Part shown: positions 1,268-3,746 of the stretch, in pieces | How positions within the stretch are numbered: position 1 is the first letter of the stretch | Layout: each line of letters starts with the position of its first letter | Notes under the pieces: model-generated | Seen by the model: the letters and a program-made list of their open reading frames with translations, nothing else | Told to the model about the DNA's origin: nothing | The model's database searches: none | Translations under genes and position numbers: made by a program | Source of the DNA: Patescibacteria group bacterium | GTDB lineage: Bacteria > Patescibacteriota > Andersenbacteria > UBA10190 | Direction of reading: 5' to 3' | Length of the DNA: 11,506 nucleotides | Assembly (NCBI GenBank): GCA_022574795.1 | Contig: JACZRJ010000007.1 | Location: 1-11,506, forward strand

Positions 1268-1296
1268 TTGTTTGTCGCTGGGAGCTGATTGATACT
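1268..1296 (+). promoter_or_regulatory. Candidate holA promoter for a leaderless mRNA
   Basis: TTGTTT (1268-1273) and GATACT (1291-1296) are separated by exactly 17 bases and match the sigma-70 consensus at 3 and 4 of 6 positions. A start site seven bases beyond the -10 would fall on the A of the holA ATG (1303), giving a leaderless transcript. This would explain the missing Shine-Dalgarno sequence. The match is modest and could be chance. Confidence 0.3.
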
Positions 1297-1318
1297 GAGC
1301 TGATGGCTCAGTATTTTT
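1292..1318 (+). terminator. Perfect 9-bp hairpin with T-run overlapping the holA start codon
   Basis: The arms ATACTGAGC (1292-1300) and GCTCAGTAT (1306-1314) are exact reverse complements with a 5-nt loop, TGATG (1301-1305), and the run of T's at 1314-1318 follows directly. G1291 and T1315 could add a wobble pair. The shape is that of an intrinsic terminator for the upstream DUF3048 gene. However, the holA ATG (1303-1305) is inside the loop and the 3' arm is coding sequence for residues 2-4. It could therefore be a terminator, an attenuator, or a structure controlling translation. The hairpin is directly visible; its role is inferred. Confidence 0.5.
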
Positions 1319-3683: not shown

Positions 3684-3690
3684 ACAGGAA

Positions 3691-3719
3691 TTGCTGCCGG
3701 ATGTAGTATTAGATTTAAT
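3691..3719 (+). promoter_or_regulatory. Candidate gmd promoter
   Basis: TTGCTG (3691-3696) and TTTAAT (3714-3719) are separated by 17 bases, matching the consensus at 3 and 5 of 6 positions. Transcription would begin near 3726, leaving only about 14 nt before the gmd ATG. Its -10 overlaps the -10 of the opposing truB promoter candidate at 3718-3719, so the two may compete for polymerase. Confidence 0.45.
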
Positions 3720-3746
3720 GATAACTATCTTATAAGGTTATGGCAA
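3718..3746 (-). promoter_or_regulatory. Candidate truB promoter
   Basis: On the minus strand TTGCCA (complement of 3741-3746) and TATCAT (complement of 3718-3723) are separated by exactly 17 bases; each matches the sigma-70 consensus at 5 of 6 positions. The predicted start near 3711 leaves a leader of about 28 nt before the truB ATG. The -35 lies inside the first codons of gmd. This is the best promoter match in the window. Confidence 0.55.

Follow-up and report, generated by a model that had tools for sequence, protein, structure and literature searches.

An intrinsic (Rho-independent) terminator consists of a stem with G-C pairs shortly past a stop codon, followed by a run of T. The junction described here, at the start of the clamp-loader gene holA in an uncultured ultra-small bacterium of the Patescibacteria, resembles such terminators in having a G-C-containing stem past a stop codon and a T run directly after it. 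Unlike them, it has a T run that is short and lies inside the next gene, and its stem holds both the −10 box and the start codon of that gene.

Bacterial leaderless (TA-led) genes have a −10-like TANNNT element about 10–12 bp before the start codon and no Shine-Dalgarno sequence (Zheng et al., 2011; PMC3160421). As far as the available text of that paper describes them, holA is like these genes in its TANNNT-type box close to the start and its lack of a Shine-Dalgarno sequence, but unlike them in that a hairpin encloses the start codon and includes the −10 box in one of its arms. The terms “candidate”, “TM7”, and “OD1” are absent from the main text of the same paper. In Deinococcus-Thermus, a promoter −10 region adjacent to the ORF gives leaderless mRNA (PMC12340547), and the −10 box of holA likewise abuts its ORF. 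The Deinococcus-Thermus case differs from holA in coming from another phylum, and the accessible part of that report mentions no overlap with a terminator. Within the accessible portions of open-licence papers, we found no description of leaderless genes in Patescibacteria/CPR; a side remark in this literature, likewise available in part, states that YchF promotes translation of leaderless mRNA.

Gene Context and Features of the holA Junction

The window, meaning the whole stretch of 11,506 nt that was analyzed, corresponds to contig G000:C125 in a draft genome comprising 782,870 bases in 171 contigs. For comparison we used nine further genomes of the same family (G001 to G009), all from genera other than that of the window; counting the window's own genome (G000), a holA relative is present in all ten. 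The following features of the junction are used throughout.

1 to 1254, + strand: DUF3048-family gene, the upstream neighbor (ORF call; Pfam PF11258, E = 2.2e-32; PF17479, E = 3.5e-21)
1268 to 1273, + strand: predicted −35 element TTGTTT, with TTG at −35 from the A of the ATG
1291 to 1296, + strand: predicted −10 element GATACT, 6 nt before the ATG
1292 to 1314, + strand: inverted repeat, terminator-like hairpin (arms 1292–1300 and 1306–1314)
1303, + strand: predicted transcription start at the A of the holA ATG (leaderless mRNA), from the −10 spacing and the −7 peak in G006, G002, and G003
1303 to 2214, + strand: holA, DNA polymerase III delta subunit (clamp loader), 303 aa (Pfam PF21694, E = 2.1e-19)
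1315 to 1318, + strand: T run 3′ of the stem (TTTT, then AT), within holA codons 5–6

The DUF3048 gene is open at the first base of the window and ends with TAG at 1252–1254, which leaves a gap of 48 nt before holA; the hairpin begins 37 nt past this stop codon. Its arms, ATACTGAGC (1292–1300) and GCTCAGTAT (1306–1314), are 100% complementary over 9 bp, four of them G-C, and the loop TGATG (1301–1305) contains the holA ATG (1303–1305). The sequence bears out the original prediction of a perfect 9-bp stem with the start codon in a 5-nt loop, and also its statement that no other holA ATG is possible, as the frame is open from the DUF3048 stop codon with no ATG, GTG, or TTG before 1303. The same prediction had five T's following the stem. 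There are T's at 1314–1318, but the first of them, T1314, still belongs to the stem as the final base of its 3′ arm, and what follows is TTTT, A, and T. The tail TTTTATGG is a weak one, with T at five of eight positions and a run that is short and interrupted (TTTTAT). A usable Shine-Dalgarno sequence is absent, as had been claimed: the nearest candidate, GGGAG at 1280–1284, lies 18 nt upstream of the start, and inspection of positions −17 to −5 found no GGAG, GAGG, or AGGA.

A Predicted Leaderless Promoter

A hexamer model was used to predict gene starts in parts of G000, G006, G002, and G003 (101, 506, 157, and 296 starts, respectively; the G000 set leaves out contigs reading N, those under about 3 kb). 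Genes with no same-strand neighbor within 40 nt upstream were classed as “far” and those closer to a neighbor as “near.” Among far genes, TANNNT ending at −7 was found in 48 of 321 starts in G006, 18 of 106 in G002, and 37 of 222 in G003, compared to control means at offsets −50 to −16 of 6.2, 2.4, and 7.4 (binomial P = 1.4e-27, 4.3e-11, and 8.8e-16). The corresponding counts for near genes were 12/185, 4/51, and 9/74. For the small sample from the window's own genome the peak was not significant (far 4/75 vs. a mean of 1.97, P = 0.14; near 0/26). The −7 peak is no artifact of the pipeline, since 150 kb of E. coli K-12 treated in the same way gave no peak (0/84 far, 0/45 near) and a clear Shine-Dalgarno signal, with a Shine-Dalgarno fraction of 0.35 for far and 0.62 for near starts vs. 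0.09–0.19 in the four Patescibacteria genomes.

The −10 motif model built from G006, G002, and G003 has the consensus T-A-T-A-C-T. TTG occurs at −35 in 18% of starts with strong −7 boxes (n = 100) vs. 1.9% of those with weak ones (n = 481), the pattern expected of a genuine sigma-70 promoter. At holA, the window's GATACT outscores 98.4% of control positions, and the family model gives a posterior of 0.81 for a −10 element at −7. The promoter pair originally proposed reads exactly TTGTTT, 17 nt, GATACT, 6 nt, ATG. It matches the E. coli consensus at only 7 of 12 positions, and a generic promoter scan missed it because this is below the scan's threshold of 9/12. The scan instead gave a promoter at 1289–1317 (9/12), which we rejected as the main promoter: its transcription start would fall within holA, and visual inspection of G006 showed no corresponding −35 element. 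Elsewhere in the window, a short divergent region (3684–3739) separates truB on the − strand from a sugar dehydratase-like gene (named by eye) on the + strand, with a 10/12 promoter match on the − strand at 3746–3718.

The geometry TTG-17-(−10)-6-ATG is common to the window, G006, and G007, the latter two belonging to other genera. G006 has TTGTCT and AATACT in the same places, with a posterior of 0.62 for the −10 element at −7 that is slightly circular because the motif model includes G006 starts. G007 reads TTGGAC-17-TAGTGT-6-ATG; the −35 element of this leaderless-type promoter (locus L008) falls within the terminal part of the DUF3048-like gene upstream. The best box of G003 is one base nearer the ATG, and the other six family relatives have no such −10 box at −7 of holA. 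When the window and G006 are aligned on the ATG, 24 of 60 upstream bases are identical, with clusters in the −35 region (TTGT.T) and over ATACTGAG (−11 to −4), which is the same in both. The start-site statistics in three family genomes, the −35 signal, and the same geometry in two other genera all argue for the leaderless reading of the original prediction, and on this sequence evidence we regard a leaderless promoter at holA as likely.

The Junction and Its Hairpin in Relatives

An ORF with a DUF3048-like C-terminus, recognized by eye from its C-terminal sequence, lies upstream of holA in all 10 genomes. The spacing of the two genes varies. G001 and G008 have a 4-nt overlap, G002, G007, and G009 have gaps of 4, 19, and 1 nt, and G003, G004, and G005 have gaps of 190, 120, and 226 nt; G006 has a gap of 38 nt and a fused hairpin as in the window. 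This constant neighborhood, and the overlap or spacing of at most 19 nt in five of the genomes, speak for plain co-transcription, in which holA would be read from a long DUF3048 mRNA and the hairpin would act as an attenuator or translation switch. However, the 48- and 38-nt gaps of the window and G006 hold a predicted promoter, and the window lacks a Shine-Dalgarno sequence. The RNA fold of 1268–1330 (−21.9 kcal/mol, z = −3.59, with none of 200 shuffles equally good) has one dominant hairpin and no alternative antiterminator pairing, and there were no Rfam matches up to an E-value of 1 in 1150–1500. We consider co-transcription of this kind highly improbable. The single dominant fold and the lack of an Rfam match also led us to reject a riboswitch, known RNA element, or attenuator, and they lend no support to the earlier suggestion that read-through or the state of the hairpin controls clamp-loader supply.

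G006, whose HolA is identical to that of the window at 152 of 301 positions (51%), has a hairpin in the same place, with 11 pairs (including two flanking A-T pairs) and one bulge, followed by TTTTGG. Six of the pairs, ATACTG/CAGTAT, are identical to those of the window; position −5 is bulged, and a shift in register gives three inner pairs. The three changed positions allow 64 combinations of letters, among which that of G006 ranks sixth in stability, and first among those without U at +6. This choice of letters is a weak hint, from one comparison, at selection for pairing.

A stem with a T-rich tail was not found between positions −60 and +36 relative to the holA start in the other eight family relatives, even with bulges allowed, so that the hairpin at this start is carried by two sequences only. 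The search for compensatory changes that the original prediction had called for gave a mixed outcome, with re-pairing in G006 and no hairpin in the remaining relatives. The prediction had also named loss of the stem in relatives that keep holA as evidence against it. Eight of nine relatives show this, yet all eight have differing junctions: in five the gene abuts or overlaps DUF3048 (−4 to 19 nt), and in three a spacer of 120–226 nt intervenes.

The absence of the hairpin from eight of the nine relatives is also in line with a simpler reading, in which holA has a leaderless promoter only and the hairpin is a by-product without termination, arising because ATACT is complementary to the Gln-Tyr codons CAG TAT, with chance pairs added. 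Five of the nine bases of the 5′ arm are the −10 box, which overlaps that arm, and the 3′ arm lies in codons 2–4. Moreover, the match of the codons CAG TAT TTT between the window and G006 is unremarkable, given that the two genes agree at 26 of their 44 two-fold codons. Nor do leaderless starts show extra structure when taken together: a stem of at least 5 bp was found at 2 of 136 strong vs. 15 of 731 weak starts, and we rejected a general class of hairpins over leaderless starts.

Three observations weigh against a by-product. The GAG beside the −10 box is kept in G006 even though neutral sites are near saturation, as judged from the 4-fold sites of holA, just 17 of 49 of which are identical. 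G006 re-pairs through a slip in register. Lastly, perfect stems of at least 9 bp with loops of 3–8 nt occur around the start codon in just 2 of 1,060 predicted starts in four genomes (G000 1/101, G006 0/506, G002 0/157, and G003 1/296), the second being an A+T-rich one in G003. Counted anywhere in the sequence, seven perfect stems of this length turned up in 123,085 bp of G000, a density of 0.057 per kb; the density in G006 is 0.122 per kb. Taken together, we find the by-product reading doubtful, while giving it real weight.

The symmetry could also act at the level of DNA, as an operator: the 23-bp dyad is centered on the predicted start site, a classical place for an operator, and might be bound by a dimeric holA repressor. 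No other copy of the dyad within 2 mismatches exists in G000, which led us to dismiss an operator regulon, and the symmetry is weaker in G006, where a bulge keeps the RNA pairing instead. An operator for a single-site repressor is a very remote prospect. The outer dyad pattern occurs in 2 of the 10 family genomes. Around an ATG it was found in 3 of 379 genomes of the phylum (reversed-pattern control, 1), namely at the two holA sites and in one hairpin behind a tRNA-Leu gene in G363. The latter (locus L180, 1250–1274) has a 9-bp stem with ATG in a 5-nt loop, and we rejected it as an independent third case, since it lies directly behind the tRNA-Leu gene (1162–1244), on the other strand, and not at a gene start. 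It sits where a terminator is expected.

Terminator Evidence

A generic terminator scan lists the holA hairpin as 1291–1315, but such a match means little by itself because the window contains 18 terminator-like sites vs. 12.0 (sd 4.0) in shuffled sequence. Counts within 80 nt after stop codons are more informative for G006, with 36 of 478 in sense orientation, 13 in antisense, and 0 in coding controls. The sense and antisense counts for the other genomes (G000 1/91 vs. 1; G002 4/149 vs. 1; G003 11/286 vs. 9) mean that use of intrinsic terminators is clear in G006 only.

In G006, 11 genes have both a terminator-like site between −60 and +36 and a same-strand neighbor 15–200 nt upstream. Five of them have TANNNT at −7 (loci L076, L061, L169, L071, and L065, where a terminator-like hairpin comes first and the TANNNT of the next gene's start comes after it), compared to 23 of 182 for all G006 genes with a neighbor at that distance. 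Leaderless promoters placed directly behind a terminator seem to be a regular arrangement in G006, with the two merged at holA. Another terminator-like hairpin over a predicted start is found at L091 in G002. A further one, at L138 in G003, was rejected, as the supposed gene spans 41 codons, begins with TTG, scores low, and is probably a wrong prediction.

With respect to the proposed terminator and its overlap with the promoter, the re-paired G006 hairpin with its T run and the use of terminators in G006 are in favor, and the eight relatives that lack the hairpin are against. On balance, a terminator at the holA start appears moderately likely from the sequences compared.

A Putative Fused Terminator and Leaderless Promoter

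The best single account of the junction, which we hold to be somewhat better than an even proposition, is that a terminator and a leaderless promoter are fused here. RNA polymerase arriving from DUF3048 would form the hairpin and tend to end in the T run within the first holA codons. A separate sigma-70-type promoter, TTGTTT-17-GATACT, would initiate transcription with the A of the holA start codon, as its geometry and conservation suggest. The resulting leaderless mRNA could not form the hairpin because the 5′ arm is missing from it.

Any read-through RNA is predicted to pair −11 to −3 with +4 to +12 and to hold the start codon in the loop. Such RNA would be poorly translated because its start codon is in a tight loop without a Shine-Dalgarno sequence. 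Leaderless RNA is predicted to have its first two bases unpaired. Very easy translation of this RNA is nevertheless disfavored because a different fold of its first 36 nt remains, at −8.7 kcal/mol vs. a mean of −3.35 for strong leaderless starts.

The net effect would be that the supply of HolA is insulated from transcription of DUF3048. In its fullest form, this becomes one self-insulating element of about 25 bp, in which upstream RNA is both ended and untranslatable and only RNA starting with AUG makes HolA; we put this forward tentatively, at somewhat less than even confidence. The fused element is a local variant of things already known. If the account is right, very small genomes can pack the end of one gene and the start of the next into a single element, and such packing avoids leakage of transcription into a core replication gene.

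Predicted Leaderless Promoters across Patescibacteria

Counts of TATANT-N6-ATG and TATANT-N9-ATG, which span genomes of Patescibacteria only (n = 145), came to 7,968 and 5,462, respectively, and the reversed-pattern control of the former came to 5,126. An excess of N6 at P < 0.01 was found in 49 genomes and a deficit in 0, and the ratio was 1 or lower in 24; the window's own genome has 23 vs. 13. These numbers suggest that leaderless promoters are common, though not universal, across the Patescibacteria. The fused holA element would be a compact extreme of this mode of expression. If leaderless initiation is indeed widespread in this large and mostly uncultured bacterial group, it would affect both the annotation of start codons and any attempts at expressing these genes in other hosts.
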